Positions 5,089 to 33,100 of a DNA stretch of 39,817 nt are shown here, piece by piece (position 1 is the first letter of the stretch; each line of letters starts with the position of its first letter). The translations under genes and the position numbers were made by a program. The notes beneath the pieces are model-generated. The model was not told where the DNA came from, searched no databases, and saw nothing but the letters and a program-made list of their open reading frames with translations. This DNA is from a virus. The stretch lies in IMG/VR virus record IMGVR_UViG_3300021356_000051, positions 1 through 39,817 of that record. One strand, written 5' to 3'.

Positions 5089-5096
5089 GATATATA
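5089..5096 (+). promoter_or_regulatory. putative late promoter element GATATATA (P1)
   Basis: The octamer GATATATA lies 22 bases before the ATG at 5119, in a 55-base gap. The same octamer is found in four other gaps. It resembles the T4 late element TATAAATA in composition and role, but this is inference. An imperfect inverted repeat (ATAT-C-CTGA and TCAGATAT, about 5070-5093) overlaps it. Confidence 0.5.
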
Positions 5097-5118: not shown

Positions 5119-6930
5119 ATGGGCGGTGAATTAATAGATGCTAGTAACTTGTTAACAGGAGGTGGAGGACTGTCTTCATTTCAATATCAAAATACTGATA
5201 CTGGGGACACTATAACTAGTGAAACACCTTTAGATGCTAATGGTAATCCACTACAACCAGCAACTGATAATGCTTCTGCGCAGGCTAATACTGAGAGAGC
5301 TCCATTAGGTGCAACACTAGAAGAGCAGCAAGAACCGGTTTCACAGGGTAATACTACAACTACCGGTGAAAGCACTGAGACTAATTCTTTATATGGTAAT
5401 AATGCTTTAAAAACTAGAGCATATACTGTTACAGACCCTGATAAAACTATTCCCGGTGTAGACGCTGTTAGATCTAAGTCAAATGCTTGGACTCTATTGA
5501 ATTACAGAAACTATTCAGGTGGTACTATTTATGGTAATCCAGAATATGGAAAATACAATAAAACTGTATTACACTCAGATAAAGAAAATATTTTAAATCC
5601 TACAGCTAAACGTATCGTGGAATACTCTGCGAATAACGGTGGTTTAGGTTTTGCTTATACATATAGAGATTTTATTCAGGCAGAGCATTATGGACAAATA
5701 TCTAATGAATTCTTAGTTACATTAAGAAGATTTGCTTTTCCTATTGGAGATGATATTAGAAATACAGTAGGCACTGATGATTCAGGTACAGAATTTGATA
5801 AGTCGGAGCCAGATTTAGCTAGGGCAATTACGTGGCTCTCACCTGCTTTAGGTAATGAAATGAAAGAGATACTCGGGTTCGGTACTGGCTTTGGCTGGGA
5901 AGAGATTAACGCCGATGTACAAGAGGTAACAGGTGCAGATACTCAATCAAGAAGGGGTTCGATCGGTGCTATGATTGAAGGTAGTGCTATAGCAAAAGGA
6001 GTAGAGGCTGGTATTAATGGGTATTCGGCTGCTCAGGCAGATAGAATTCACACTAAAGGTCATGGATTCGACCCTCTATCAAAAACATATCCTAACTTTG
6101 TATATGGACCATACAATGCTATTAAATCTGTATTGGCTAGAAACAAGGATGGTCTTAAATTTGACAGCGAGTTTACTCTTAACTTCTACTATGATTTAAG
6201 AGGATTTGACAATACATCTCCAAAGGTAGTATTTATGGATGTAATTTCTAACCTATTAGCGATTACATATAACAATGCTCCTTTCTGGGGTGGTGCAACT
6301 AGATATACGTCAAGCGGTTCTACAGGTAAACCATTTGGAGATTTTGATAAATTAAAGAACGGTGACTATGCAGGCTATCTAGGCTCATTGGCAACACAGT
6401 TAAAGTCTTCACTTGGTGCTGGTTTTGCCGATCTAGGTAAAGCTGCAAAAGGTCTAGTAAATGGTAAAGGTATAAACGCACTTGGGGACTCTAAGATTTT
6501 AGATAACTTAATTGGTGGTTCTCTAATGAAACAATTAGGTTCACCCTCAGGTGGTGATATTATTCAAGCATTCTTAACAGGTGATCCGACTGGACAGTGG
6601 CACTTAACGGTGGGTAATCCTATGAACCCAATGATGGTGTGTGGTAACCTATGTTTAGAAAGCGCTAAATTTGAATTTGAAGGTCCATTGAGTTTTGAAG
6701 GTTTTCCTAGTAAACTAAAGATGACAGTTGCATTAAAACCAGGTAGACCTAGAGATAAAGCAGAGATTGAGTCTATGTTTAACGCAGGTAGAGGTAGAAT
6801 GTACTTACAACCAGAAGTTGAAGGTAAATCACTCGATGATGTAGTAGACGTATCACAATTCGGAAATAAAGATAGAACCAGAATGTCTCCAGATAGAGCA
6901 TTGAGAAATTCTGATTTCGCAGCAGGTTAA
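5119..6930 (+). CDS. baseplate/tail-tube structural protein
   Basis: This 603-residue protein has a low-complexity N-terminus (G, T, N, Q-rich, residues 1-95) and a long folded body. The C-terminal region, about 494-567, contains W-H-L-T-V-G-N-P-M-N-P, G-N-L-C-L-E and G-F-P-S-K-L-K-M-T-V. It continues with L-K-P-G-R-P-R-D-K-A-E-I-E-S-M-F-N and G-R-G-R-M-Y. In large myoviruses that signature belongs to tube-like baseplate or tail-tube proteins, where N-P..N-P precedes a beta strand and a G-R-x-R-D loop. It is the first gene after promoter P1, followed three bases later by the gp53-like gene. The exact T4 equivalent (gp48/gp54 or another tube-fold protein) is uncertain. Confidence 0.7.
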   Translation: MGGELIDASNLLTGGGGLSSFQYQNTDTGDTITSETPLDANGNPLQPATDNASAQANTERAPLGATLEEQQEPVSQGNTTTTGESTETNSLYGNNALKTRAYTVTDPDKTIPGVDAVRSKSNAWTLLNYRNYSGGTIYGNPEYGKYNKTVLHSDKENILNPTAKRIVEYSANNGGLGFAYTYRDFIQAEHYGQISNEFLVTLRRFAFPIGDDIRNTVGTDDSGTEFDKSEPDLARAITWLSPALGNEMKEILGFGTGFGWEEINADVQEVTGADTQSRRGSIGAMIEGSAIAKGVEAGINGYSAAQADRIHTKGHGFDPLSKTYPNFVYGPYNAIKSVLARNKDGLKFDSEFTLNFYYDLRGFDNTSPKVVFMDVISNLLAITYNNAPFWGGATRYTSSGSTGKPFGDFDKLKNGDYAGYLGSLATQLKSSLGAGFADLGKAAKGLVNGKGINALGDSKILDNLIGGSLMKQLGSPSGGDIIQAFLTGDPTGQWHLTVGNPMNPMMVCGNLCLESAKFEFEGPLSFEGFPSKLKMTVALKPGRPRDKAEIESMFNAGRGRMYLQPEVEGKSLDDVVDVSQFGNKDRTRMSPDRALRNSDFAAG

Positions 6931-11396: not shown

Positions 11397-13271
11397 ATGC
11401 CTGCACTTTGGCCTAAATTCATAAAAGATCTGGCAGATGATATTACAAGCCAGCAATTTAAGAAACCAGGTGGAGCAGGTACTATGATTGGTATGCCAGT
11501 TCCTGCTGTAGGTGCTAATAACCAATTAGGTGAAACTGTGTCTGGTCAAAAATCTATTCTATCTGGTGGAATTACAGATGTAGGTAATCCTGCTAACGCT
11601 GCGCTTAAGACCAATCCTGCTACTATGGTAAATGCAAATAACACATCACCTAAATCAGGTAGATATGATTTTGGTGTTAGAGTTGCAGAGAGATATATTG
11701 AAGCTACAAAGGGTAAAGCACAAACTCATGTTGCAGAATTTCACGCGAACAATGGAGCTGCTGAAGCTCTGCTAAAGAATGGTTATGGTTGGGCTTTCGA
11801 GAGACTATTAATGGAAGGTGATATACCTCTACAAGATCAATATGATGAAGATGGTAATCTGATTGAGATGGGTAAAGAGTCTCATCCTGCCTATGCAGAT
11901 TTCTGTCCGACTGAAGAGGAGACTGCTGGTCCAGACGTAGATGAAATTAAAAGCGAGAATGATAAAGCCTTCAATAAATTTGTTGAGGAGCGAAGAGAAG
12001 AGTATAAGCTAGATAAATTTAAGTTCTATCATTTTCCTTGTCTAAGTGGCCAAGAGTCTCAGGCAGAACTAGAAGTTATCTTTGCTACTAGAATTCTAAT
12101 GGGCTATGAGTTCATGGAAACTGCTAACGAGAGATGGAACTACTTTGTATGGGCATGTCACTTAGGGAAAGAGAATTACTCTGGCACTAGCAACTATAAA
12201 AATCTTAGTAGTAGAACTAAGAATGAAATTGAAGATGCTGGCTATGACTATAAACTATTAGCGGATAATGTATCTCAGTATGTAAAAGAAGGTATCATGG
12301 CTGCACATCCTGAGAGGAGTACAGATTGGCCTAGGATAGGGATTAACTCTACGTTAAAGCAAAGAATTAAAAGACCTGCAGAAGAGGCGATCCAATTCCC
12401 AACAATTGAAGATGAGAATGGTACGGATATTACTCCAGACTACTGTCCTATTAATCGATATAAATTACAGGTGGCTAGAGATTTTGAAGGTGACGATAGT
12501 CTAAAACCTAAAATCTTAACCATGAGTATTATCGCTACATTTACATATTATCCTGGTAAAAGACAAGGCACCGGTGGTGGTTATGTAAAAAATAATGAAG
12601 AGGCTAAATTTATTACATCTGGCCCACAGAACATGAGGTTTGAAAAATCTTTGGGCTGGATAAAGAACAAATATAGAGACGACGAGTACAAGAAGAAGTG
12701 GAGAAAGGTACCTGCTACTAAATTAAAACAGGCAGCTCGATCGAATAAACCTAAACAAAAGTTTTTTGAGATCGATCCTATTCCACAAGGTACACTGTTT
12801 AAATTTGAATACCATAAAGCTCTTTGTGCTATAGAACAAGCAGAGAAGTGTGAAGAAGATTTAGCAGAAGTTATACATCCATGGAGACCTGGCTATGAGG
12901 GTTTTAATGGCGATCCTTACATGATGATGGCTAGAGTGACAATTGCATATTGGTATGCTTGTATTGTACAGCCATTTAAGAAATCTCCATCTGCTCCACC
13001 GGCTCTAATCGTACCTCCTCTTGGTGGTATCTACATTCCAATTTATTATGGTAGTGCAAATCGCCTAGCTAATAATCTAAGAAAAGCCTGGAATACAGGT
13101 AAGTCTTTCAGTAAGCTACCTGCTAAACAGCCGCCAGCAATAGCAGTAAGTACAGCAGTAGCAGGCGCGTATGCGATACACCTGCTAGAATTTAAGCTGC
13201 TTTATCTTGGTGGTATTCCAACTCCAGCTGGCCCAGTGCCGATGGTTGGTTTTGTACCAGTGGTATTTTAA
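11397..13271 (+). CDS. virion-associated protein with hydrophobic C-terminus, function unknown
   Basis: I do not recognise this 624-residue protein. The N-terminus starts M-P-A-L-W-P-K-F-I-K-D-L and is followed by a Gly/Ala/Asn-rich stretch (about 25-85). The body is helical and rich in acidic and aromatic residues, with several scattered cysteines. The last 95 residues are unusual: P-P-L-G-G-I-Y-I-P-I-Y-Y-G, then A-I-A-V-S-T-A-V-A-G-A-Y-A-I-H, and an ending rich in P, G, V and F. This looks membrane-active or buried. It begins three bases after the spike gene, so it is likely a spike or hub partner or an ejected tail protein. Its stop overlaps the stop of the convergent minus-strand gene. 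Confidence 0.66.
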   Translation: MPALWPKFIKDLADDITSQQFKKPGGAGTMIGMPVPAVGANNQLGETVSGQKSILSGGITDVGNPANAALKTNPATMVNANNTSPKSGRYDFGVRVAERYIEATKGKAQTHVAEFHANNGAAEALLKNGYGWAFERLLMEGDIPLQDQYDEDGNLIEMGKESHPAYADFCPTEEETAGPDVDEIKSENDKAFNKFVEERREEYKLDKFKFYHFPCLSGQESQAELEVIFATRILMGYEFMETANERWNYFVWACHLGKENYSGTSNYKNLSSRTKNEIEDAGYDYKLLADNVSQYVKEGIMAAHPERSTDWPRIGINSTLKQRIKRPAEEAIQFPTIEDENGTDITPDYCPINRYKLQVARDFEGDDSLKPKILTMSIIATFTYYPGKRQGTGGGYVKNNEEAKFITSGPQNMRFEKSLGWIKNKYRDDEYKKKWRKVPATKLKQAARSNKPKQKFFEIDPIPQGTLFKFEYHKALCAIEQAEKCEEDLAEVIHPWRPGYEGFNGDPYMMMARVTIAYWYACIVQPFKKSPSAPPALIVPPLGGIYIPIYYGSANRLANNLRKAWNTGKSFSKLPAKQPPAIAVSTAVAGAYAIHLLEFKLLYLGGIPTPAGPVPMVGFVPVVF

Positions 13272-13678
13272 CCCCAGTCTTTTTCGAAAGTATACCAATG
13301 GTCTGCAGACGCACAGTCGCGCAGAGCATCTAGAACCATATAAACCTTTTCGTCAATCGTTAGGTTGTTTAGAACAGCACCTACATGCATCTCAATTAGG
13401 TTTTCATCCTTAAGATATGTAGACACTTGTTTTGCAATTCCAGTTGCAAGTCGGTAACCATTGTCTTCAACCGTGTTGTATCTGCTACCAGCATAATACT
13501 CGGTATAAGTATCGACTTCGGAAGCATGTTCAATCATCTTGTCCCAGAGTTTATCGCCGAGTAGATCTCGAACCTCTTGACAGATTTCAGTAATCTGATT
13601 GATGTGTTTCAGTGTGGCTTGGTAGCCGAAGCCACCAATACCGTTACACTTGATTTCTTTGTAGTTAAATTTTGCCAT
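13268..13678 (-). CDS. small cytoplasmic protein, function unknown (accessory island)
   Basis: The 136-residue protein is encoded on the minus strand. It is mostly helical with a Cys/Gly motif near the start (I-K-C-N-G-I-G-G-F-G-Y). A central helical stretch carries I-C-Q-E-V-R-D-L-L-G-D-K-L-W-D-K, and the end is C-A-S-A-D-H-W-Y-T-F. No membrane segment or signal peptide is seen and no family is recognised. It is the second gene of a two-gene minus-strand unit: its ATG shares one base with the stop of the upstream gene (TAATG on the minus strand). Its stop codon overlaps that of the convergent structural gene in the tetramer TTAA at 13268-13271. Opposite orientation suggests expression at a different time from the tail genes. 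Confidence 0.68.
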   Translation of the reverse strand: MAKFNYKEIKCNGIGGFGYQATLKHINQITEICQEVRDLLGDKLWDKMIEHASEVDTYTEYYAGSRYNTVEDNGYRLATGIAKQVSTYLKDENLIEMHVGAVLNNLTIDEKVYMVLDALRDCASADHWYTFEKDWG

Positions 13679-14154
13679 TATGCTACTTCTTTAATAATTA
13701 TGTTTTCAAAAGAGTCTTTCAACTCTCCATAAGCTAAGCCAGCCCAAGTCTTAGAACCAATAGATTTCCAATGGTTGAAGTCCGCCATGTTAGGGAAAGT
13801 AGAGTGAATATCTCCGATCGTCAAGTTCTCAATGACAGTCTTGTCGATGTGCAAGAACTTGTTGTTCTTCATGTTAAGAACGGAGATGTAAAAGTCTGAA
13901 CCAGGAAGTTGAATTTCAACGTTGAAGAGTTTGTTCTTTTCGTAACGGAAGAGGTTACAAAGAAGTCCTTCACCTGAGTTAATAGTCAAGAAACCAGCTC
14001 TACATTTAGAGATGCTTCTGTATTTGTACTTAGTTTTGTTCCAGTCTAGACCAAGGTCTTTGACGTAGAATGTGTGCATTTTACCCTTAATGTTCTGTTC
14101 GATTGTGAACGAAGTTCCGAGGGTAGGGTTTGTGTGTTTTTTAATGTAAGCCAT
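13678..14154 (-). CDS. beta-rich protein of unknown function (accessory island)
   Basis: This 158-residue protein is the first gene of the minus-strand pair. It is beta-rich and basic, with T-S-F-T-I-E-Q-N-I-K-G-K-M, a Y-V-K-D-L-G-L-D-W segment and F-Y-I-S-V-L-N-M-K-N-N-K-F-L. The C-terminal third has M-A-D-F-N-H-W-K-S-I-G-S-K-T-W-A-G-L. No family is recognised. It starts beside the divergent regulatory region at 14155-14269, so it is probably controlled by the GGCAA/TTGCC array there. With its partner it is the only convincing minus-strand coding unit in the window, as expected of an early or middle gene or an acquired cargo gene. Confidence 0.68.
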   Translation of the reverse strand: MAYIKKHTNPTLGTSFTIEQNIKGKMHTFYVKDLGLDWNKTKYKYRSISKCRAGFLTINSGEGLLCNLFRYEKNKLFNVEIQLPGSDFYISVLNMKNNKFLHIDKTVIENLTIGDIHSTFPNMADFNHWKSIGSKTWAGLAYGELKDSFENIIIKEVA

Positions 14155-14716: not shown

Positions 14717-15085
14717 ATGAAAACGCCTATCATTAAGTACAATGACAAGTTTTTAGACCGTATCGGTTTGTTTATGCGAATTGGCGGTATCACTCTTTGG
14801 CCTTTTGTTATCCTGAGAGAGATTTATGATTCTACACCGCCTTGGAGAAGAAGAGCTGCTAGAATTATTAACCATGAAACAATTCATATTAAACAACAGG
14901 AAGAGATGTTAATCATACCTTTTTATATTTGGTATGTTACAGAGTGGTTTATTAAATTGTTTATTTACGGTGGTCAGGCTTACTACAATATTTCCTTTGA
15001 AAGGGAAGCTTTTGATAACGATGACAACTTAAGCTACCTAAGTGGTAGAAAACGTTACGCTTGGATAAAACGCGTGCTTAAGTAG
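14717..15085 (+). CDS. membrane-associated HExxH metallopeptidase-like protein of Bacteroidota type
   Basis: This 122-residue protein contains H-E-T-I-H (residues 53-57), an HExxH zinc motif, followed by K-Q-Q-E-E. A hydrophobic segment M-L-I-I-P-F-Y-I-W-Y-V follows, and then I-S-F-E-R-E-A-F at about 92-99, where a glutamate could be the third zinc ligand. I recall small flavobacterial chromosomal proteins with the same order (H-E-K-I-H-x-x-Q-Q, a membrane segment, N-I-S-F-E-R-E-A), so this is probably host-derived. Their function is not known to me. It is too short for a complete M48 or M56 peptidase and may be a minimal membrane protease or an inactive binder. It lies 15 bases after the secreted protein gene; its stop codon overlaps promoter element P3. 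Confidence 0.72.
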   Translation: MKTPIIKYNDKFLDRIGLFMRIGGITLWPFVILREIYDSTPPWRRRAARIINHETIHIKQQEEMLIIPFYIWYVTEWFIKLFIYGGQAYYNISFEREAFDNDDNLSYLSGRKRYAWIKRVLK

Positions 15086-15092
15086 ATATATA
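15085..15092 (+). promoter_or_regulatory. putative late promoter element GATATATA (P3)
   Basis: The octamer starts on the last base of the HExxH gene's TAG stop and lies 31 bases before the ATG of the S1-like gene. A short inverted repeat TATAAT/ATTATA (15089-15094 and 15100-15105) overlaps its end, which may be chance in AT-rich DNA. Confidence 0.48.
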
Positions 15093-15123: not shown

Positions 15124-16422
15124 ATGTCAGACAAAAAAAGACGCAGGATTCAAACTGCCGGTGTGAAAGCCGAATCATCGATCGAACTACTAGATAGAGT
15201 TCAGACCCCTACCCAAGAATTTACAGAGACTAAAAAAGACAACCAGGACGACGGTAACGACTTCTCAGAATTTTATGATGAGAATGGAGAGTTCCTATGG
15301 GAAGCCTATGAGTCTACATGTCCATCCCACACTAGAAAACCTAACCCACATGTAAAAACACAGAATGGCGATAAGGTTTACTCAAGAGAGCCTTACGCAC
15401 AAGAGATGTATGACATCTTAACTGAATATAGCCCTGAAATTAAATCTCAATTATTTACAGGTGAGATTCACACAGGTAAAGTTTGGGGTGTAACAGAAGA
15501 GTGGATTACAGTAGACATTGGCTACAGAGAATTAGTATATGTAAATGCTAAGAAGGAGTCTGATGAAGTGAGAGCACTTCTACCAGGAGAAGAAACTGCG
15601 GTCTTAATTACTGACACAAGAGGCACTTTAGCCGGTACAATTACTGGTGGAGTAAAACATAAAACTTTCATGGACTTAAGAGCTGGTATCGAAGAGGGTA
15701 ACACTGCTTGGATTGGTCTAGTGAAAAATATGATTGAGAATGGTGGTTATATTGTAAGAGTACAGGGCGTTGACTGTTTCATGCCAGGTTCACTTGCAGG
15801 TATTAATAAACTATCAGACTTTAGCTCAATCATTGGAGAAGAGATCTATGTTGTACCAGTGAGTTACTCACCAGATAGAGGTACAGTCATTGTTTCACAT
15901 AGAAAATATCTACAAGCATTAATTCCTAACGCTATTCAAGAATTAAAGAATTCTATAGAAGATGTTAGAGAAGGTTTAGTTACAGGTACTGCTAAATACG
16001 GCGTGTTCGTTGAGTTTGACAAATGTTTAACTGGTATGATTCATACTAATGAGTTAGATGAAGAAACTCTGGTTAAGTTTAAATCTAGAGAGATTAAGCC
16101 AGGCGACCCTGTTAAGTTTTTTGTAAAAGATATTATTAGTAATTCTAAAATAACTCTAACTCAAAAGGAAGGAACGTCAATAAGCCCATGGATAAACATA
16201 GGCTCTAGGTATCAAATACCTTCAGTCGTCGAGGCTAAAATAAAGACTAAAAAGGATTATGGTATATTTGTAAATATCGAAGAAGGCGTAACCGGTTTAT
16301 TACATGTTAGTGAATTGCCTGAAAATAAAATCGATTCATATAATATAGGTGATTCTCTAGATGTTCAAATTACTAGAATTGATGAGTCTGCGATGAAGGT
16401 ATTTCTTAAATTACCTCAATAA
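15124..16422 (+). CDS. S1-repeat RNA-binding protein (phage ribosomal protein S1-like)
   Basis: The protein has 432 residues. An unrelated N-terminal region (basic start K-K-R-R-R-I, then an acidic stretch, to about 105) is followed by four S1/OB repeats at about 110-175, 193-268, 277-355 and 360-430. The last two are the clearest, with G-T-A-K-Y-G-V-F-V-E-F and K-D-Y-G-I-F-V-N-I-E-E-G-V-T-G-L-L-H-V-S-E-L. S1 repeats bind single-stranded RNA; in bS1 they bring mRNA to the 30S subunit. Bacterial bS1 usually has six repeats, so this is shorter, and the N-terminal ribosome anchor is not recognisable. It could redirect host ribosomes to phage messages. RNA protection or polymerase regulation are alternatives. 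It has its own proposed promoter (P3). Confidence 0.85.
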   Translation: MSDKKRRRIQTAGVKAESSIELLDRVQTPTQEFTETKKDNQDDGNDFSEFYDENGEFLWEAYESTCPSHTRKPNPHVKTQNGDKVYSREPYAQEMYDILTEYSPEIKSQLFTGEIHTGKVWGVTEEWITVDIGYRELVYVNAKKESDEVRALLPGEETAVLITDTRGTLAGTITGGVKHKTFMDLRAGIEEGNTAWIGLVKNMIENGGYIVRVQGVDCFMPGSLAGINKLSDFSSIIGEEIYVVPVSYSPDRGTVIVSHRKYLQALIPNAIQELKNSIEDVREGLVTGTAKYGVFVEFDKCLTGMIHTNELDEETLVKFKSREIKPGDPVKFFVKDIISNSKITLTQKEGTSISPWINIGSRYQIPSVVEAKIKTKKDYGIFVNIEEGVTGLLHVSELPENKIDSYNIGDSLDVQITRIDESAMKVFLKLPQ

Positions 16423-16439
16423 CTATAAAAACAGAGGAT

Positions 16440-16447
16440 GATATATA
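16440..16447 (+). promoter_or_regulatory. putative late promoter element GATATATA (P4)
   Basis: The octamer lies in the 51-base gap after the S1-like gene, 26 bases before the amidoligase ATG. A perfect 7-bp inverted repeat, ATGATAT (16438-16444) and ATATCAT (16458-16464), overlaps it and may be an operator half-site pair or a weak hairpin. It would start the long unit 16474-30120, in which no further gap exceeds 26 bases. Confidence 0.5.
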
Positions 16448-16473: not shown

Positions 16474-17784
16474 ATGCAAAAACTAAACGTATCTTCGGAT
16501 AGACATTCTGTTCTAAACGCTAGTCAGATTGGAATTGAATTTGAGTTTTATTCTAACTTAGAGCTAGAGGAAACACAAAAATCTTTATCCGAACTACTAA
16601 ATAGAAAGATTAGACTAGAGGAAAAGGCACACTCTGATTTCCAACCAAGCGCTGAAGTCTTTAAGATGGAACCTGATATGTCAGGTGGTAAAGGGCTAAT
16701 TGAGTTGGTAACAGGTGCAATGCCTTATAGAAACGCTAGGATTGTAATTCAAAAGATGTTAAGATGGATCGAGAAGAATGGTTATACAAATGACCGTGCT
16801 TCGATTCACCTTAATATGTCTTTTAACCCTGATTATTTAGTAGATAAAAATATGATTCAACACATGTCAGTGTTGAAATTCATTCTAGAGTTTGATGAGG
16901 CTAGAGTGTATAAGTATTTTCCAAATAGAAAGGATTCTACTTATGCAAAATCTATTAAATGGGTTATGCCAAAACATGAGGCTTTCTACTATAATGAAAA
17001 TCTAATTAGCTCAGATAACTTTACTTTCGCTAATACTAAATACTATGGTATTAACTTTGAGAAGGCACAGAAGAACTATTTAGAGTTTAGATATTTAGGT
17101 GGTGAAGGTTATGAGAAAAGAGTAGATGATATTCTACATCTTGCGGATGGATTTATTATGTCTGTCTTCAAATCTTGCTTCAACCCTAGATTTACTCCCG
17201 AGAATAAAATTGAACTTAAGCGTATCCTAGAGAAGAATAGACCTCTAATGGAAATGCTAAAAGACTACAAGGCAGTAAATAAATATTGGAAGAAGATAAA
17301 TATATTAGTAGACTTAACAGACAACGAGCAAGTAATCGAAGTTCAGTGGAACAGATTTAAGCTAAAAGTCTTAGAGTTACTAGCAAATGGTACAATGGAA
17401 GAAGGGATTATCAACTATGATTCCGACTACGGTGTGGTACAAGTTAAAAATGGTAAATTTAAGACTGCTTATTTGCTAGATGGATTTGAGTTTATAGACT
17501 GTGAGCTTTCAGGAAATATCGAAAATAGTGGTATTTATGGCGGTAAAGTAGAAGGAGCACAGTTATTAAGAACACAACTCTATAAAGGCTGTGAAGTAAA
17601 GGATTCAAAAATTGAGTCCTCTTATGTGCATGGCAGTTGTTCAGTAACAAACTGCTTTGTCTTTGGAAAAGATACAATTTTCAAAGGTAGAATGGTTGGA
17701 GGTATTTTCAGAGAGGGTGGCATTGGGCCACATGCTAGATTTGATGATACCGAAATAGTGGTAAGCACAAAAATAAATAGTTAA
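16474..17784 (+). CDS. GS-fold amidoligase with C-terminal pentapeptide-like beta-helix
   Basis: The protein has 436 residues. The first ~220 match the putative amidoligase family (glutamine-synthetase-like COOH-NH2 ligases): I-G-I-E-F-E-F at 19-25, M-E-P-D at 65-68, L-I-E-L-V-T-G at 75-81, S-I-H-L-N at 110-114 and Y-L-E-F-R-Y at 202-207. The acidic residues would bind metal-ATP, and H112 and R206 are probable active-site residues. Enzymes of this family join a carboxylate to an amine using ATP. From about 335 to 425 the sequence turns into five-residue steps (I-Y-G-G-K, V-E-G-A-Q, L-L-R-T-Q, L-Y-K-G-C), a beta-helix that may bind a surface or oligomerise. It starts an operon of baseplate genes, so a virion protein or the host wall are possible substrates. 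Neither is shown. Confidence 0.78.
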   Translation: MQKLNVSSDRHSVLNASQIGIEFEFYSNLELEETQKSLSELLNRKIRLEEKAHSDFQPSAEVFKMEPDMSGGKGLIELVTGAMPYRNARIVIQKMLRWIEKNGYTNDRASIHLNMSFNPDYLVDKNMIQHMSVLKFILEFDEARVYKYFPNRKDSTYAKSIKWVMPKHEAFYYNENLISSDNFTFANTKYYGINFEKAQKNYLEFRYLGGEGYEKRVDDILHLADGFIMSVFKSCFNPRFTPENKIELKRILEKNRPLMEMLKDYKAVNKYWKKINILVDLTDNEQVIEVQWNRFKLKVLELLANGTMEEGIINYDSDYGVVQVKNGKFKTAYLLDGFEFIDCELSGNIENSGIYGGKVEGAQLLRTQLYKGCEVKDSKIESSYVHGSCSVTNCFVFGKDTIFKGRMVGGIFREGGIGPHARFDDTEIVVSTKINS

Positions 17785-17785
17785 A

Positions 17786-18628
17786 ATGAGTGAAATAAGA
17801 TCGGGTAACGAAACTAACTTAAGCACCGAAAGAGATTTCGGGGATAGCTGTCTTAACGCCTTTCTCCAAGAGTTAGGTGATGATTTGACTGGTGCTTGTA
17901 TGGTTCCTGTTAACCTACCACAAAGAGAAATTATTAATATAGTTAAAAGAGCTAAGAAATGGTTCTATAAAAACTATGAGGATGCAGTTAGAGAGAACTA
18001 CTATCATGTTCCTAAAACTGTATTTGATTCAACATATTTTAAAAATCATAGATCTTTAAATCTACCTAATGCAAGTGCAGATGGTTCAGGTGCAGTATTC
18101 TCTGTATTTGGAGTACATGATTTGGGTTCTGGTTTCAACAGCGCACAAGGTGGATTAGATGTTAGATTCCAAAGCGGTGGAGACTTCGCTTTAGAGAAGA
18201 TGTTATTTAGAGGTATGTATGAAGGAGCCGGATCTGCCGAAGCTGCAGAAGAACTACAATACTATGTGCTTAATCAATCACTAGCAGATATGTCTAGGCA
18301 GATTTTAGAAAATCCTATCTCTTACCAATACTCTAGATTAACTGGTGAATTAAAGATATTAGGTGATACACCAAAAGACGATGTAATCCTACATGTATAT
18401 GAGACACTACCCGATTGTGCTATATACGAGGATGAAGTTTTCTTTAGATATTGTTCTGCTAGAATTAAGCAGTCCCTGGGTGCTAAATTAGGCATCTTTA
18501 AATTTGCATTACCTGGTAATGTGGAATTTGACTACGACGCGATAAAAGACATGGGCGACACCGAATTAGAGTCGATTATCGAAGAAATTAAAGGCGATGA
18601 AGGCGTGGATTGGATGTTCCACTCATAA
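17786..18628 (+). CDS. virion structural protein (neck or baseplate component)
   Basis: The protein has 280 residues. N-terminal L-P-Q-R-E-I-I-N-I-V-K-R-A-K-K-W-F-Y and C-terminal I-Y-E-D-E-V-F-F-R-Y-C-S-A-R-I-K follow a layout I remember from conserved structural proteins next to baseplate genes in many large myoviruses. That layout continues with F-K-F-A-L-P-G-N-V-E-F-D-Y. A middle region of about 70 residues is Gly/Ser/Ala-rich. It lies one base after the amidoligase gene and 20 bases before gp25. A neck/adaptor role or a wedge-associated role are both possible. Confidence 0.66.
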   Translation: MSEIRSGNETNLSTERDFGDSCLNAFLQELGDDLTGACMVPVNLPQREIINIVKRAKKWFYKNYEDAVRENYYHVPKTVFDSTYFKNHRSLNLPNASADGSGAVFSVFGVHDLGSGFNSAQGGLDVRFQSGGDFALEKMLFRGMYEGAGSAEAAEELQYYVLNQSLADMSRQILENPISYQYSRLTGELKILGDTPKDDVILHVYETLPDCAIYEDEVFFRYCSARIKQSLGAKLGIFKFALPGNVEFDYDAIKDMGDTELESIIEEIKGDEGVDWMFHS

Positions 18629-18648: not shown

Positions 18649-19005
18649 ATGGATTTTTACATTAAATATATTGGTGACCCTAACTACCAGACTGATATTG
18701 TACACAACAATGGGGAGATTGAGCAACTATTGGCTCAGATTGAAACCACGTTGTTCACTAGAAAGAGGGATGTGTTAGGTCAACCTGATTTTGGATGTAG
18801 TCTAGAAAACTTGGTTTATGGTATGAACCAAAATGAATTTCAAATTAAAAATGAAATTGAGAAACAATTAACTAACTATGTACCTCTCTCTAGAAAGTAT
18901 TCTACAAGTGTAGATGTTAAATTCTTTAGAGGTGAAGTTAGAGATATTTGTTATGTAGATATTACAGTTAATAATGAGTACACAATTCAAGTAAATCTAA
19001 GATAA
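18649..19005 (+). CDS. gp25: baseplate wedge protein gp25 (GPW/gp25 family)
   Basis: This 118-residue protein is the usual length for gp25. After a short strand region it has T-L-F-T-R-K-R-D-V-L-G-Q-P-D-F-G-C-S-L-E-N-L-V, the family's core (family members have T-x-x-G-E-R-x-x-x-P-x-x-G-x-x-L). The C-terminal part alternates strands (V-D-V-K-F-F-R, Y-V-D-I-T-V, Y-T-I-Q-V-N). gp25 (TssE in type VI secretion) starts sheath assembly on the wedge with gp6 and gp53. It sits eight bases before the gp6 gene, which is strong support from gene order. Confidence 0.9.
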   Translation: MDFYIKYIGDPNYQTDIVHNNGEIEQLLAQIETTLFTRKRDVLGQPDFGCSLENLVYGMNQNEFQIKNEIEKQLTNYVPLSRKYSTSVDVKFFRGEVRDICYVDITVNNEYTIQVNLR

Positions 19006-19012
19006 ATAAATA

Positions 19013-20842
19013 ATGGCTGAATTAAAATTTTTAAGTACACTAAGAACCTCTGCAAATCAAGTCAAGGCTGATGCGCGCACCTATATTGCAAGGGTGTATA
19101 AGCGTGCAAATACCCTATTTACAGAGGCTTCACCGTTTGCTCAAATTGTAAACGTGATGGCTGAACTTGGTGAACTAATTATGTTCTATATAGAAGATGC
19201 TACTGTAGAACAAAACATATACACGGCCCAGCAACCTGAGTCAATCTATGGTCTATCAAGATTAACTGGCCATGATGCAACCAGAGGTTTTGCTGCAACA
19301 GGAGAGATAGAATTCAGATGGAAGTTAGGTGCAGATCTTGGTAAGATTGCAGGTACTGGTTTAAACATTGATGCTAGATCAGAGTTATCATGTGAACTAA
19401 ACGGCTTAACGTATACTCTACTAACACAACAAGATAAGTTTAGATTAGAAAAGTCTAACAAGTATAAAACTAAATGTGCTATCATTCAGGGTCAGTTTGA
19501 ACAACAGACGTTTACTGGAACTGGTGAGTCTATGCAGTCATATAATGTAAAAGTTCAATCATTAACAGACCACTCTAAAGTCTCAGTTGCAGTCAACGGC
19601 GAGCATTGGACCAAACACGATTCGATCTATGACCTACTTAACGAAGAAAAGGGTTATATCCTAAAGACAGGTATCTCAGGCGGTTTAGACGTTTATTTTG
19701 GTACTGGTAACTTTGGTGCAATTCCACCAGCAGGTGCAGATATTACCGTTGAATATGTGAAGCATAAAGGTGCTTTAGGTAATATTGATGATGGACAAGA
19801 TATTGTTTTCCAATGGCAGTCAGAGGGTTCAGACTCTAACGGTGATACTTTTGATTTAAACGAGTATTTAGAAGTTAATGTAACTTCATCTCCAAAAATG
19901 GGCGCAGATAAAGAGAGCCCAGAGTTTACTAAGTTAATGGCACCTCTCGCTTCCAAATCTTACGTCTTAGCAACTCCAGACAATTACGAGTATTTCCTAT
20001 CAAGATACGGATTATTCTCGTATGTGGACGCTTACAACACGACGTCGGATCAGTATTTAGATGATGACAATGTGATCTATATCTTTGCTGTGCCAGATAT
20101 AAAAAGAAAACTATTAGCAAGTCAAGACTACTTCTCTATTCCAGAGAATGAAATGTTCTTTGACCAAAACGAATATGACAAGATGTCACAAGTAATTCAA
20201 GATAGCGGCCAGCAAATGGTAACTACTGAAGTGGTGTTTGTTAAACCTCAGATTAGAAAATACAGTATGGACATTAACATCAGATATTTTGAGGGTTATA
20301 CAAAACAAGAGATCTTTAGCGAAGTTAGAGCTAGAGTAAGTGACTACCTATTAAATATCACAAGAAGAGACAAATTGCCTAAGTCTGATATTGTGTATAT
20401 TCTAGAAGAAATTGATGGCATTGATGCAGTGAATGTGAGATTCATCTCAGAAACAGAAGAGACAGCTAGACGTCTAGGTTACTACGAGTCTAAAACTGTA
20501 TCTGTTGTACCACAAGAACCTGTGCTATTAGAAGATATTGGTAACGGCAAACAAAAATATATTTTCTTTAAGCGCGTGGAAGAAGTTAAGACCGTGGACG
20601 TCGATGCGACGACAGCTATTCCACCAACAGTTGCAGGCTTAGACGAATGGGGTGACATCATCATGGAGAAAGAAGAAGTCGCTGTCTTTAGAGGCGGATG
20701 GCAAGACCGTGATGGAGACCCTATTATTGACGACGCTCGCATCAACGCGGAAGCTGCGCTTAGTGTGAATTTTGATGAAACGCCGGTACCTAGAACAATA
20801 TACACTAGAGTACAGGCTGGAAATAGAAAAGCCTTGAAATAA
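19013..20842 (+). CDS. gp6: baseplate wedge protein gp6-like (baseplate_J family)
   Basis: The protein has 609 residues; T4 gp6 has 660. The N-terminal helices (F-A-Q-I-V-N-V-M-A-E-L-G-E-L-I-M-F-Y-I-E-D) followed by E-Q-N-I-Y-T-A and L-S-R-L-T-G-H-D-A-T are typical of wedge gp6/gpJ. The middle is beta-rich. The C-terminal part has I-R-Y-F-E-G-Y-T, then E-I-F-S-E-V-R-A-R-V-S-D-Y-L and I-V-Y-I-L-E-E-I-D-G-I-D-A-V. That is the usual helix followed by I-x-x-I-D-G-V. gp6 dimers form the ring linking all wedges. It follows gp25 and its stop overlaps the next ATG (TAATG). Confidence 0.88.
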   Translation: MAELKFLSTLRTSANQVKADARTYIARVYKRANTLFTEASPFAQIVNVMAELGELIMFYIEDATVEQNIYTAQQPESIYGLSRLTGHDATRGFAATGEIEFRWKLGADLGKIAGTGLNIDARSELSCELNGLTYTLLTQQDKFRLEKSNKYKTKCAIIQGQFEQQTFTGTGESMQSYNVKVQSLTDHSKVSVAVNGEHWTKHDSIYDLLNEEKGYILKTGISGGLDVYFGTGNFGAIPPAGADITVEYVKHKGALGNIDDGQDIVFQWQSEGSDSNGDTFDLNEYLEVNVTSSPKMGADKESPEFTKLMAPLASKSYVLATPDNYEYFLSRYGLFSYVDAYNTTSDQYLDDDNVIYIFAVPDIKRKLLASQDYFSIPENEMFFDQNEYDKMSQVIQDSGQQMVTTEVVFVKPQIRKYSMDINIRYFEGYTKQEIFSEVRARVSDYLLNITRRDKLPKSDIVYILEEIDGIDAVNVRFISETEETARRLGYYESKTVSVVPQEPVLLEDIGNGKQKYIFFKRVEEVKTVDVDATTAIPPTVAGLDEWGDIIMEKEEVAVFRGGWQDRDGDPIIDDARINAEAALSVNFDETPVPRTIYTRVQAGNRKALK

Positions 20843-21117
20843 TGTTATTTAGAGACCTATTAGTTTACAAGCGTAAAAGGCTGTATAAAGTAGCCAAGCA
20901 TAGAAGAGACGATCTTAAGAATACTAAGTACGACTATAAGTCTGAGCAAAGAGGTCTGATTAAAAATCAAGTTTCACATCATATTCAAAGAAATCAAACG
21001 ATGAGAGAGTTTTTACTCTTTATCAACGATTATATTGTTAGCCTGTTAGATCAGGTAAGATATTTAAAGAACTACAAAAACTTTACAGTACAAAAAGACG
21101 ACGATACAACTAGATAA
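20842..21117 (+). CDS. small basic protein between gp6 and gp7 genes
   Basis: The 91-residue protein is strongly basic in its first half (Y-K-R-K-R-L-Y-K-V-A-K-H-R-R-D-D). A hydrophobic helix follows (F-L-L-F-I-N-D-Y-I-V-S-L-L-D-Q-V) and the tail is acidic. It starts on the gp6 stop codon (TAATG), so it is translated with gp6. T4 has no gene here. An assembly helper or small structural clip is the likely role, but no family is recognised. Confidence 0.65.
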   Translation: MLFRDLLVYKRKRLYKVAKHRRDDLKNTKYDYKSEQRGLIKNQVSHHIQRNQTMREFLLFINDYIVSLLDQVRYLKNYKNFTVQKDDDTTR

Positions 21118-21119
21118 CT

Positions 21120-23885
21120 ATGTGGAATAATTTAAGATTCTTTAATGGTACTGCTGAAGAGTTACAGTTAGTACAGAACGCAGCAGGCGTATGGACCGGT
21201 AAGGTCTATCTACCTGAAGTATCTGCAGGTCTGTATGAAACTGTTAATCTATTTGTATTGGAAGAAGTTATCCACGAGGGAGAGACTAAGGTCAGCAAGC
21301 CTATTTCGCCAAATGGTACAATCACTCAATTAGACTTCAGTTGGAGAGCTTTAGCTAAAGATCAGTCTAAAGACGTGATTATGTATGGTATGAGAATGGA
21401 TGGTGGTAAAGCCTATGTAAAGGAATTAAAGAACCAATCTCTAGAGTTAGCTGATTTTACTACTATTGTATCACAGGACAGTGACTACTTAAAGACAGTA
21501 AACGCGCACGAGAACATTGCTCTACAAGTTAACATCGCAATCTCTTCACAGAATGAAGGTATTCATAAGAGGGTATTGCAAGTTAAAGCTGGTGAGACGC
21601 TAATCGCTGAAATTGAATTCTACGGAGAAGTAGAAGCAGAAGACGAGAGATTAAAAATCTTATTAGGTAACTTAGGCGCCTCTTTAGAGGAAGAAGACTT
21701 TATGATATTTAAGTCACATGACATCTCAGAGATGCACCCTGACTATCAACTGTTAAACCAAAAGAGAAGAGAACTCTTACTAGAGTTAAACAACATTAAA
21801 CCATTTGTCGGTACGTATAAGGCTATCCTAAATGCGATCGACTTCTTTGGTTACGATAAGATTACCCTAAAAGAGTATTGGATTAATGTAGATAAGAGCT
21901 CAAGCAGTTTCGGTAAGCTACATGCTATCCCAGTACCTAACTCATCGGTAAGAGGTGAGATGACTAGAAAACTACTTAAGTTTAAAATGCCTTCTGCTAC
22001 GCAGAAGAAAACTAGTAGATTCTCTCTAGTCTACAGATTAAATGAGCCTAACGGTACATTCGATCAGTGGGATTTTGCTAATGTAGATGAAGTATTTGAT
22101 TATACTCCAGAAGAAGTCCTAATTAAATTATACGGTTTAAAGAATAGATTACAACGAGATTTTTTACCCCTAGAAGCTAAAATCGTAGACATCACAGGGG
22201 AAGGCGACTATTTCGCTCAGAAAAACTTAAATATCTGGAAGATTCAAAATCCAATTAGTTTCTTCACCGAAGGACATAGAGTAAAGTTCGATGTATTTCC
22301 TAACGACAGAGAATTATTCATTGAAGATACATCAATGGTATTAAAGTCTTACCTAGATCAAAATGATTTAACCAATAACTACACTACATTCTTAAACTTA
22401 GGTGTAGGTGATGAGGCTAGTATTACAGAGGCGCAAAGAACAGAATTAAAAACTGTCTATGAAAAATTCTATGAGACATATCACGATAGAGAGATGAACT
22501 CATGGAACCAGAACTTTGGTCAAACTACAGTGCCAATCGGCTGTCCAGTTATCTTAGACTCGATGGAGTCTTGGGATGATGTATGGGATGAAGCTCAGTT
22601 TGTTTGGGATGATGCCGTTGATGCAAATGCAAATCTAAAAGTAACTTGGGAGAACTGGTGGAAGAGATGGGTCTATGAAGTTGAGTGGATTATCGATGGT
22701 CCTAATGGATGGCATCAAGAATACAGAGGTCCAATCGACGACTACAAGAGATTGCCACTTAATTTACCTTATGTAGGTTCATACACAGTCGAGCTAAGAT
22801 ATTATGACTTATTTGGTCACATGTCTTACTATAAGAAAGAAGATCTTTTTGATGTAAAACTAAAAGAGATAGAACTATATGGTGTTTACTCTTGGTTAGA
22901 GACTGACAAGAAAGATAATATCTCACCTTGGAATGAAAAGTATTTAGACTGGAATCATTCAGGTGGTTACTGGGATTTTCCACAAGATAATAAGAATAAA
23001 GTAGAAGATTCAATTGCTACTTTCTATCTGACGTTAGATAGAGCTAATTATCCAAAAGATGCTACAGATCAGGGTGTAAGATTCTCAACAGTAAGAAGAT
23101 ATATTGACATCTACTCAGATACAGGTTACTCGGAAACTACTGGTCCATTCCAGTGGGATGAATGTTCATTTAGATGGAAAGATACAGTACATAACTGGTG
23201 GAACAACATGAGAGTGGGACCAGATTTAACTGCATCTTTTAAAATAGATTGGATTCAACAGGGCGACACTTTAGTGATAACACATAGAGACCCTGTGTCC
23301 AATGAGTTAATAACAGGTAGTCATACGATTACATCGACTACACCATCTGGTTCTAATGATGTTACTGCTTGGCAGAATATCGCCGACGAACTAGAGGCTA
23401 GCACAAATCCTATTGTTGCTAAATTTAACTATAACGCTGTTTTCAAGGATATGGACAGCGATAATGATATTGACAACCTAGACCAATTTCATTTCATACT
23501 GTGTACTGGACAAGAGTACTCTAAGACTTATGATTTTGAAAATGTAATTATCCAAGGTAGCGCAAGCTCATCGGTGAGTGGTCCAGTAAATTCAGTAGCA
23601 TATAACCCAACATGGGATAATTTAAAAGTATTTAAAAACTGGGCAGAAGTTGAAAGATCTACCCACGTCACTATATCAACCGACATTTCTAAGTTCCCGG
23701 GTGCAAGAAACCCAAAATGGACGATTACTAATATAAGTAACCCAAATGTGAATGATATATACTATAATAATATGTGGCTTACGTACATTTTCCAGGAGCC
23801 GGGTGATTACTCGATACAACTGGAAGCGGAAGACACGTATGGAAATAAGAACGTTGTACAACGCAACATGTTAAAAGTAAAATAA
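21120..23885 (+). CDS. baseplate wedge protein, gp7-like
   Basis: The protein has 921 residues; T4 gp7 has 1032. Gene order (gp25, gp6, small gene, this) and size support gp7. Around 210-250 there is Y-Q-L-L-N-Q-K-R-R-E-L-L-L-E-L-N, then G-T-Y-K-A-I-L-N-A-I-D-F-F-G-Y-D. That helical pair is seen in wedge gp7 and similar proteins of large phages. The C-terminal half consists of Ig/PKD-like beta domains with tryptophan-rich joints, for example W-D-D-V-W-D-E-A-Q-F-V-W-D-D near 482 and F-Q-W-D-E-C-S-F-R-W-K-D near 677. These could be outward-facing decorations. It is separated by only two bases from the gene before and seven from the gene after. Confidence 0.7.
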   Translation: MWNNLRFFNGTAEELQLVQNAAGVWTGKVYLPEVSAGLYETVNLFVLEEVIHEGETKVSKPISPNGTITQLDFSWRALAKDQSKDVIMYGMRMDGGKAYVKELKNQSLELADFTTIVSQDSDYLKTVNAHENIALQVNIAISSQNEGIHKRVLQVKAGETLIAEIEFYGEVEAEDERLKILLGNLGASLEEEDFMIFKSHDISEMHPDYQLLNQKRRELLLELNNIKPFVGTYKAILNAIDFFGYDKITLKEYWINVDKSSSSFGKLHAIPVPNSSVRGEMTRKLLKFKMPSATQKKTSRFSLVYRLNEPNGTFDQWDFANVDEVFDYTPEEVLIKLYGLKNRLQRDFLPLEAKIVDITGEGDYFAQKNLNIWKIQNPISFFTEGHRVKFDVFPNDRELFIEDTSMVLKSYLDQNDLTNNYTTFLNLGVGDEASITEAQRTELKTVYEKFYETYHDREMNSWNQNFGQTTVPIGCPVILDSMESWDDVWDEAQFVWDDAVDANANLKVTWENWWKRWVYEVEWIIDGPNGWHQEYRGPIDDYKRLPLNLPYVGSYTVELRYYDLFGHMSYYKKEDLFDVKLKEIELYGVYSWLETDKKDNISPWNEKYLDWNHSGGYWDFPQDNKNKVEDSIATFYLTLDRANYPKDATDQGVRFSTVRRYIDIYSDTGYSETTGPFQWDECSFRWKDTVHNWWNNMRVGPDLTASFKIDWIQQGDTLVITHRDPVSNELITGSHTITSTTPSGSNDVTAWQNIADELEASTNPIVAKFNYNAVFKDMDSDNDIDNLDQFHFILCTGQEYSKTYDFENVIIQGSASSSVSGPVNSVAYNPTWDNLKVFKNWAEVERSTHVTISTDISKFPGARNPKWTITNISNPNVNDIYYNNMWLTYIFQEPGDYSIQLEAEDTYGNKNVVQRNMLKVK

Positions 23886-23892
23886 ACGAAAA

Positions 23893-24450
23893 ATGGCAAA
23901 CATTACTGAAATTTTAGGTACAGACTCGGTTTCATCTTCAAGACCAGTTATCAACAGTAACTTCGAACTTCTGAACGACGAACTAGCTACAGTTACAGGT
24001 CTATTAGACCCAACAACTGCAGTCCTATCTGGCTTAACAAACGCTACGACTCAAGAACTTAATGTAGTAAATGGTTCTACATTATTTAGAGTAAGTACTG
24101 CCGGTGCATTAATTGGCACTGCAGCTACATTCTCTTCATCTGCGAGCTTTGGTGGTTCAATTGTTAAATCAGGTGTAGGTGGTTCTGCAAGTGCACCAGT
24201 AGCTGCTCCAACGACTATCGATAAGAGCACTTACTTTATGAATGGCAACTATGACATTCCGGCTGGAGCAGATGGGCAAGAAGTTACGTTAATCAATAAG
24301 AGTGGAGGCGCTGCTACTGTAACTGCATCTGGTGTAGTTAGTTTAGGTGCTACTTCTATCTCTTTAGATGGCAACAACTCAACTGTAACATTAAGATGTT
24401 TTGAAAACGTATGGTATGTAATTAGCTCTTACGCTACTACAATATCATAA
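23893..24450 (+). CDS. short tail fibre/baseplate appendage protein
   Basis: The protein has 185 residues. The N-terminus I-T-E-I-L-G-T-D-S-V, then I-N-S-N-F-E-L-L-N-D-E-L, resembles the N-terminus of the fibre gene at 38412 (I-Q-E-I-L-H-P-S-D-S, I-N-Y-N-F-D-Q-I). This suggests a shared attachment module for binding the baseplate. The middle is a Ser/Thr/Ala/Gly-rich, beta-prone region. The C-terminus (I-P-A-G-A-D-G-Q-E-V-T-L-I-N-K, then V-W-Y-V-I-S-S-Y) looks like a small trimeric tip domain common in fibres. It sits between the wedge gene and large baseplate genes, so a short fibre or a cap is likely. Confidence 0.68.
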   Translation: MANITEILGTDSVSSSRPVINSNFELLNDELATVTGLLDPTTAVLSGLTNATTQELNVVNGSTLFRVSTAGALIGTAATFSSSASFGGSIVKSGVGGSASAPVAAPTTIDKSTYFMNGNYDIPAGADGQEVTLINKSGGAATVTASGVVSLGATSISLDGNNSTVTLRCFENVWYVISSYATTIS

Positions 24451-30141: not shown

Positions 30142-30149
30142 GATATATA
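30142..30149 (+). promoter_or_regulatory. putative late promoter element GATATATA (P5)
   Basis: The octamer lies in the 64-base gap before the giant gene, 35 bases before its ATG, and directly before a perfect hairpin (30151-30168). It would drive the adhesin and fibre genes separately from the baseplate operon. Confidence 0.5.
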
Positions 30150-30184: not shown

Positions 30185-33100
30185 ATGGCATACGTAGTAT
30201 TACAATTTTCGGCAACAACTTACTTTAGTGCATGGGGCGCAGGACAAGATAATGGTTCTAGCACACAAAACGTAGTATATGATAACGCGCAGCAATCGGG
30301 CACGGCCCTACAGGTGGGTGATGCTGTTTTTTATGAGGATGGTAGTAACTTAGGCAATCCTTCTACAACACCAGTTCAGGATGGTTTCTATTTGTGCCAA
30401 GTGCAAGGCACACCCAACACAGTAGTGCAGATAACATCCGCGGATGTTTCTTCTATAATAGACCAGAGTAATGCCACGACTACAACAACTACAACAAGTA
30501 CAACGACAACGTCGACTACGACTGAAGCCCCGGCTATTGAATGGAACGACAGTTCAACTTTTAATACGTCTTCGGCGGCCACTACTTTAACGAGGTCTTT
30601 TACAATAACTAATAATAGTACTAACTTTACCCAAGGTGATATTGTTGGCTTACCTAACTGGATAACTGTAACCTCTCTATCAACTACAACACAGGGTGGT
30701 ACTATTGAGTTTTCTATATTGGAAAACACTACAGTCACTCCAAGGGATGCTACTATTGAGTTAGAACACCCTGGAGTAAATGGCGTAAAAACAGATCCTG
30801 ACATTACTATCAACCAGGCGGCAGGCGACGCGGTGCCTACCGCTCCGGACTTTAGTCAAATAGTTCAATATACCACAGTAGGTGGAACTGCACAGTTTAC
30901 TCTTGATTTTTCTAATGCGTCTGGTTGGACTAACGTAGGAGGCAGCTCGGTACAAGATGCTGAGTCTTCTTTCGCGAACGATGATTTAAAGATTCAGATT
31001 ATTGAGATTCCAGGTAACATCGAGATCTATGATAACGCTGCATCAGGGACACAGTTAACACAAGTAGCAAACCCTCCGTATGAATTAATTAATCAAGGCG
31101 GTGCGCCTACTCTACTTATTTCCAGTACGAGTTGGACTGGTACAGTGGTGTGGGACTATCAAGTAGAAGACGCTGCTGGTAATACAGTAACAGGTGAGAT
31201 TGAAGTTACTATACAGGAACCTGCTAACCAGGCACCTGACGCAACAGACGCTATTATTACACCTTTTGTAAACGATAGTACAGGTATATTAAAATATTTC
31301 AGTAGAGCTGCAACGGACGACGGAGTTGGCGGCGGCAGCACGACGTTTGAATGGTGGGATAATGATAATCAAACGACTAAAACGCTAGCACAATTAAATA
31401 ATACTATTTTACAATATGGGCAAGTAAGTTTGGCATCCGGTGAGTCTTGGATTTATACACCTGATGCATCAAGTGTTAGACAATTTGGAGACCCTACTCT
31501 TACAGAGACGTTTTACTTTAAAGCAACAGATCAAGACGGTAATGGTCTATCCGATGCTGGTAGTATTGGTACGGTCCAAATAGTTATGTTGTCACCTGGT
31601 AATGAGCGACCAGAATTTACGGTTACTTCTGGCTCGGACACGATGGCACAATATACTCAATTGAGTCAAACTATTACAGCATCAGATCTAGACGGAGATC
31701 CATTAACCTTTTCTATATTACAGGCTCCAGCAGAGGGCGAGTTAACCCTTGTTAACCCTCAATCAAATGAGGTGACTTGGAACTATAACGCGAATGGAGC
31801 TGCTGGAACAGTTACGTTCCAACTACAAGTTACGGATTCAAAGAACGAGAGTGCTCTTACACCGTTTACGATGACAATCAACGTGACAGCGTCGAGTGCT
31901 GTGTTAGTTAATGCATCTCAGTTTCAAGCTAACTCCAATGACGCATGTGCTGCTACAAAAGACCAACCAAAATATTTAGATACTGCGCAAGCTCAAAGCG
32001 TAGATCAGCTAGAGGTAGGTGATATAATTTACCAAGATACAGACTTTAACACTCCGTTAGCCAGTACAAACCAAGCTACTAGATGGGTTGCGGTGGTGCA
32101 ACCTTCTAACCCTACAGTTTCAAGAGCAATTGAAATAGACAGCGATGGTAGGATTGTGAGTATCGTTGAGTGTCAAGTTTCTTTAGGAAATGCTTGGCCT
32201 ATTATTGTAAGCTACGACGAGGATGTTATTGATTTATGTCAGGGCAGCGCAGAGTACAGCTATCAAGAAGTTTATCAGAATATAAGTCAAAATGCAACAC
32301 TGGCAGATGTCGTTACGGCTGGCGGTCAACTATTTAATGATATAGTCGTAGCAAACATATACCTTAGTAACACAGCTCCTAGTGAGTTTACAGTACCATC
32401 GGGTTACTACAATGATACTACATCTAGTGCGGACGGTGAGTATTATGAGTTTCAACAAGGTAGTTGGATCGCTGGTACTAACACAAACAGTTCGAACTCA
32501 TGTCCAGTTGAAATAAATTATCAGACATACAATGTTGGTGTATACTATAATAACGTAGATAGAGACAGCATAGATAATATCTGTTTAGCTAATAGTTCTG
32601 ATTTAATTTTTACTAAACTCTATTTTAGAGGTAATATATTAGATAACATTAGTCAATTATCCGAAGAAGACAAGCTACAGTATTTGTTACAGAATAACCT
32701 AGTGATATTTACATCACAAGAGGGTGCAGATGCGGTGGACTATGACTTAACATGGGACAACACAGTATTCTTAAGCTCTACATTAAACGGTAGTACTTAT
32801 AGTTTACCTGCCCAAAGAAAGTTTGCGATTTGGGAAAACTATAACTCAAGCGGCTACTCTGGTAATTTCACTTGGAAAGGCACAGATAGTTCTGGTTTTG
32901 TTTTGAGGAACGGTGGAGACAACAGCACAGTTTTAGCGGAATGTTCATTATATCCTGCTGGCGCTGGAAGACCTGCTGCAAACTCTATATACTGTCAAGG
33001 TTTAGAGAATAACGCTTGTACATCAGTCGACGGAGTTGCTACATCCCGTGAAAATGTATTCTATGCTTTCTTATCATGTGTAGCTAGATTTGAGGATGGT

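Follow-up and report, generated by a model that had tools for sequence, protein, structure and literature searches.

Podoviral amidoligases such as those of PSA-HP1, LUZ24-like phages and tf share cassettes with genes for GATase, ATP-grasp or cyclotransferase proteins, and a peptidoglycan-modifying role has been proposed for them (PMC5498523; PMC10580990). In UFV-P2 and tf, amidoligase and GATase genes are part of a unit that holds replication genes. The protein analysed here belongs to the same PF12224 family and has the same glutamine synthetase (GS)-like core as the amidoligases of phiEco32, LUZ24, tf and PSA-HP1, whereas its gene sits in a tail unit, is not accompanied by a GATase gene and encodes an added beta-helix. 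It was found on a viral contig of 39,817 nt (IMGVR_UViG_3300021356_000051; all of it is referred to as the window), the remainder of that genome being absent from the record. The GATase family PF13522 was detected in none of the 11 records searched, five of which are huge-phage genomes, and all 14 control genomes matched. The podoviral peptidoglycan-modification cassette was thus rejected as the identity of this locus. The gene and the parts of its product are as follows.

16474-17784, plus strand: amidoligase/beta-helix fusion, 436 aa, ATG start; PF12224 above cut-off; AlphaFold2 mean pLDDT 90.8
16474-17193, plus strand: GS-like catalytic core, residues 1-240; GS match, invariant residues, median Ka/Ks 0.08
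17194-17388, plus strand: helical linker, residues 241-305; helices at 242-305 in the model, median Ka/Ks 0.17
17389-17781, plus strand: C-terminal beta-helix of the pentapeptide-repeat kind, residues 306-436; pLDDT 93.9 when modelled alone, lag-5 period

The frame at 16474-17784 is open, and stop codons abound in the frame read on its reverse complement. A Pfam search placed Amidoligase_2 (PF12224) at residues 18-129 (26.1 bits against a cut-off of 22, E 9.4e-6), and 11 of 35 relatives matched it at E <= 0.01. Employed as a six-frame search, PF12224 misses almost all members of the family, and family counts were therefore taken from the A2 profile. Full-length relatives were obtained by tblastn in six uncultured huge-phage records of 462-735 kb (31-39% identity), which represent five distinct ones because LR756501 and LR756503 match identically; each of these five genomes contains a single full-length copy by the A2 profile. 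In IMG/VR, 80 marine-type loci encode proteins with 62-100% identity to the fusion, where "marine" is shorthand for the close clade of the window and not a sample origin looked up contig by contig. A second IMG/VR scan yielded 551 matching stretches, three more scans led to distant loci, and full-length relatives span 29-100% identity overall. From marine contigs through to phages of 460-735 kb the fusion is conserved, and the beta-helix is always attached in the close family. No relative was detected in the GTDB genome contigs searched, two weak plasmid matches each covered only half of the protein, and the A2 profile had no match in the Lak, PTm1, pT24, MA9V-2 and PAU phages. By these searches the gene is a phage-only member of Amidoligase_2. 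The fusion and its tail-gene setting are a conserved variant of a known enzyme family, of which a limited literature search found no description.

The fusion has 44 BFVD matches at E <= 1e-3, and those that carry a name are mostly amidoligases. A full-length structural match (TM 0.84, 22% identity) is the uncharacterised 439-aa protein A0A6J5PQ40 of an uncultured Caudovirales phage. AUZ94978 of phage Atu_ph07 (PMC6102473), annotated in BFVD as an amidoligase, has the GS-like core and is encoded close to the portal gene; its A2 match ends at profile position 256, with no match to the beta-helix. By accession offset it would be gp196 of that phage.

The earlier note on this DNA, made from the sequence alone, had proposed a GS-like fold with conserved acidic and His/Arg positions in the N-terminal half. 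The predicted structure, built with AlphaFold2 from a 35-sequence alignment, bears this out. Residues 8-239 are folded like GS and gamma-glutamylcysteine synthetase (1va6 and 1v4g are in the Foldseek list), and the core matches GS 4bax with a VIA Z of 11.5 and an rmsd of 3.6 over 184 aligned residues; identity is about 10%, and the core of the fusion is smaller. Foldseek alone gave E 3.5e-4 and a low whole-chain TM because a single domain matches. Across the 35 aligned sequences E22, E24, D68, E77, H112, N114, R152, K159, K162, N194, E204 and R206 are invariant. Seven of the eight acidic, His and Arg positions named beforehand are on this list and only E66 falls short, being nearly invariant. 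The acidic metal-site residues, the His and the E-x-R motif (E22, E24, D68, E77, H112, E204, R206) are thus all present; presumably they correspond to GS active-site residues, an assignment that stems from knowledge of GS and not from measurement on coordinates. Marine-type sequences have median Ka/Ks values of 0.08 for the core, 0.17 for the linker and 0.13 for the beta-helix, and by these ratios the gene is under purifying selection. The fusion is almost certainly an enzyme, an intact-looking carboxylate-amine ligase of the GS-like Amidoligase_2 type, and would catalyse ATP-dependent amide-bond formation.

The five-residue beta-helix steps predicted for the C-terminus were recovered as well. 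Hydropathy autocorrelation over residues 338-400 reaches 0.35 at lag 5 and is at most 0.17 at every other lag from 2 to 12, and the C-terminal part modelled alone forms a confident beta-helix. Z-scores of 8.1-9.4 were obtained to the pentapeptide-repeat proteins NP275/276, MfpA, EfsQnr, AlbG and HetL; pentapeptide-repeat and other right-handed beta-helices together score 8-9.6, and with a repeat fold, scores of about 8-9 may reflect no more than a common arrangement. The pentapeptide-type identity is therefore also based on the lag-5 period, on Pfam Pentapeptide_4 matches in 14 of 35 relatives and on weak profile matches to AlbG and MfpA. The right-handed helix with five-residue steps is that of MfpA, Qnr and AlbG (Z 8-9); in the fusion it is shorter and linked to an enzyme.

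In the window the gene is embedded in a plus-strand tail region.

15124-16422, plus strand: S1-domain protein (PF00575, E 6e-27), always upstream of the amidoligase in marine relatives
17786-18628, plus strand: neck-protein homologue, 280 aa, next downstream; tblastn 26%, E 1e-17 to the "neck protein" of Tenacibaculum phage PTm1; phrog_211 connector
18649-19005, plus strand: gp25-like baseplate wedge protein; PF04965 at E 3e-4, below cut-off; phrog_43 at E 1e-3
19013-20842, plus strand: gp6/Baseplate_J-like wedge protein; PF04865 above cut-off; phrog_219 at E 6e-29
20842-24450, plus strand: 91-, 921- and 185-aa genes of the amidoligase unit; gaps of -1 to 7 nt, without GATATATA at their starts

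Gaps from the amidoligase to a 1233-aa gene measure -1 to 26 nt, and the next gap is 64 nt. The downstream gp25 and gp6 genes named in the earlier note were found, the former by PF04965 below cut-off and phrog_43. The "gp7-like" label of the 921-aa gene was dropped, as its sole strong match is an unnamed PHROG. Elsewhere in the window, two minus-strand genes of 136 and 158 aa (13268-14154) break into the plus-strand tail region; neither received a Pfam or PHROG assignment.

A short element recurs at the head of several of these units.

16439-16447, plus strand: promoter-like element TGATATATA, 26 nt before the amidoligase start codon, unchanged in all 21 aligned leaders
15085-15092, plus strand: GATATATA before the S1-domain gene, which starts at 15124
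5089-5096, plus strand: GATATATA heading the 603-aa/gp53-like/hub unit; ATG at 5119 after a 22-nt spacer
30142-30149, plus strand: GATATATA heading a 2740-aa gene that follows the tail unit; ATG at 30185 after a 35-nt spacer

Among distinct marine sequences, GATATATA precedes the amidoligase in 43 of 43 and the S1 gene in 45 of 45; it is absent upstream of the neck, gp25, gp6, 91-aa, 921-aa and 185-aa genes, and 13 other tail-region genes, with 408 upstream sequences between them, lack it. The amidoligase had been placed at the head of a baseplate operon. Position and GATATATA agree that it heads a tail unit in the marine phages, and the correction is that the neck homologue lies between it and gp25. 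The window holds seven copies of GATATATA, all on the plus strand (3.6 expected), a count that by itself is weak because five of 100 shuffles reach at least seven. Its placement carries more weight: in 16 loci an ORF starts within 60 nt after 35 of 51 GATATATA sites, whereas anagrams reach a median of 4 and at best 16. We read GATATATA as a predicted promoter of late tail units, and expression of the amidoligase with the tail unit is very probable in the clade of the window, judged from sequence. The S1-domain gene has its own GATATATA in the tail region and is unlinked from the amidoligase in several huge phages. A dyad after TGATATATA was considered as an RNA hairpin and dropped, as RNAalifold predicts no pairs in this leader and single folds reach z of only -0.8 to -1.2. 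No hits came from Rfam and tRNA scans of the window, which also lacks the T4 late motif TATAAATA.

Conservation of the setting was followed through the relatives. The order S1-amidoligase-neck was observed in 145 of 149 marine-type loci, a tally in which some contigs are counted twice, and the remaining four lie at a contig edge; it is also retained in loci L186-L190. The gene is co-directional with tail genes in marine phages, LR756500 and L185-L190, and divergent from them or elsewhere in other huge phages. LR756504 carries the gene on the strand opposite to gp25 and neck genes, about 2 kb from them. Within the LR756502/LR745206 clade the gene is transcribed divergently from a conserved 129-aa gene and from 603-aa, LysM and hub-like genes, and most of the distant phages have it beside 603-aa, LysM and hub genes. 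In LR756501 the nearest of three markers is 334 kb away and a homologue of the 921-aa gene about 10 kb away. A random position would be as near to a marker gene with a probability of 2.6-5.1%, depending on which of the five linked genomes is considered; these values are not to be multiplied because the genomes are related. Synteny beside baseplate genes, as anticipated in the earlier note, thus persists in most lineages as linkage to the tail, although in distant phages the tail genes differ and often occupy the other strand, and LR756501 is unlinked. Several further features of these genomes were recorded. In many distant huge phages (L158-L176, L083, L085) the gene after the amidoligase overlaps or abuts its stop and begins MKYLKxFE, and a DHH-phosphoesterase-like gene often comes next. 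Several downstream ORFs in L171, L164 and L162 begin MKxxxxFNxF...NEEA, starts which we take to resemble the T4 capsid-targeting leader. The 603-aa and gp6 homologues of Lak phage MK250024 (W08) continue through several TAG codons, in agreement with the TAG recoding reported for Lak phages.

The distant clade has an element of its own, TTTTAATATATA, which is located 4-8 nt before the amidoligase start codon in most loci (24 of 29 by a looser pattern) and also heads 603-aa genes (13 of 26) and neck genes (3 of 3). In LR745206, read in pieces (L198-L229), TTTTAATATATA lies 4-5 nt before most of the 56 start codons that come after it, against 2 for the reversed motif; as a -10-like promoter element it would imply almost leaderless mRNAs there. 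Genes with TTTTAATATATA encode a T4 gp15-like tail protein, an M15 peptidase, helicases, an RNA ligase/tail-fibre attachment catalyst, NUDIX, GGACT (gamma-glutamyl cyclotransferase-like) and a methyltransferase. As helicase, RNA ligase, NUDIX and methyltransferase genes are among them, the element is not tail-specific. A comparison set without TTTTAATATATA includes DNA polymerase, topoisomerase, DNA ligase and a DnaB-like helicase but also a portal gene. This distribution fits a late or middle-late class, without amounting to proof.

Based on these data, the fusion may be a late carboxylate-amine ligase that is made with the tail and acts on a tail or neck protein, a possible function that is put forward tentatively as the leading reading. 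The amidoligase would be transcribed as the first gene of the tail transcription unit and, because of this position, would be produced late alongside the neck and baseplate proteins. Its beta-helix may serve to dock it on a partner. In the course of assembly a carboxylate on a tail or neck protein would be joined by the ligase to an amino compound, for instance as a gamma-glutamyl or amide link. In favour are the enzyme family and fold, the invariant residues, the low Ka/Ks of the core, the tail linkage in most lineages, the shared promoter-like element and the missing GATase. Against it are the 334-kb distance in LR756501, the divergent orientation in most of the distant clade, the lack of tail specificity of TTTTAATATATA and the lack of an invariant C-terminal Glu. 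The last point emerged when a Pup-like tag, the substrate of a PafA-like ligase, was sought in the tail region and not found: no protein of the tail region ends in an invariant Glu, the 470-aa gene doing so in 43 of 54 sequences. It is doubtful that the protein is, more specifically, a beta-helix-guided ligase which, while the particle is built, gives a tail or neck protein a non-templated amide or isopeptide modification. To our knowledge, no such post-translational step has been described in phage virion assembly.

The enzyme could instead modify the host envelope late in infection, altering a peptidoglycan side chain or another surface peptide and thereby aiding lysis or blocking superinfection. 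This is the role proposed for podoviral amidoligases (PMC5498523; PMC10580990), and it gains from the GGACT genes near 42557 in LR756502 and 25351 in LR745206, which bear TTTTAATATATA like the amidoligase, as does the M15 peptidase gene. However, GGACT is missing from two of the five huge genomes and never near the amidoligase in the other three, no searched record contains the GATase, and the fusion sits beside tail genes and not in a replication-gene unit as in UFV-P2 and tf; we regard envelope modification as rather unlikely. Synthesis of a small gamma-glutamyl or amide metabolite, with the place in the tail region merely an inherited order, would suit a fold shared with GS and gamma-glutamylcysteine synthetase, which act on small molecules, and the unlinked gene of LR756501. 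It is improbable given that separate lineages link the amidoligase to different tail genes and that the beta-helix is under purifying selection, which is unexpected in a simple metabolic enzyme. The position among tail genes, and that of the distant relative AUZ94978 within the Atu_ph07 CDS 170-215 cluster rich in virion proteins, could also indicate a virion component in which the enzyme fold has a mainly structural role. Every catalytic-type residue is invariant at 29-39% overall identity, a constraint needless in a purely structural protein, and this explanation appears very improbable.

Phage amidoligases have so far been read as tools that alter the host wall or metabolism. If the fusion does modify a virion protein, it would represent a new step in tail assembly, one that mass spectrometry could reveal in any such virion. 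If the host wall is modified instead, production of the enzyme with the timing of tail genes would still call for an explanation.
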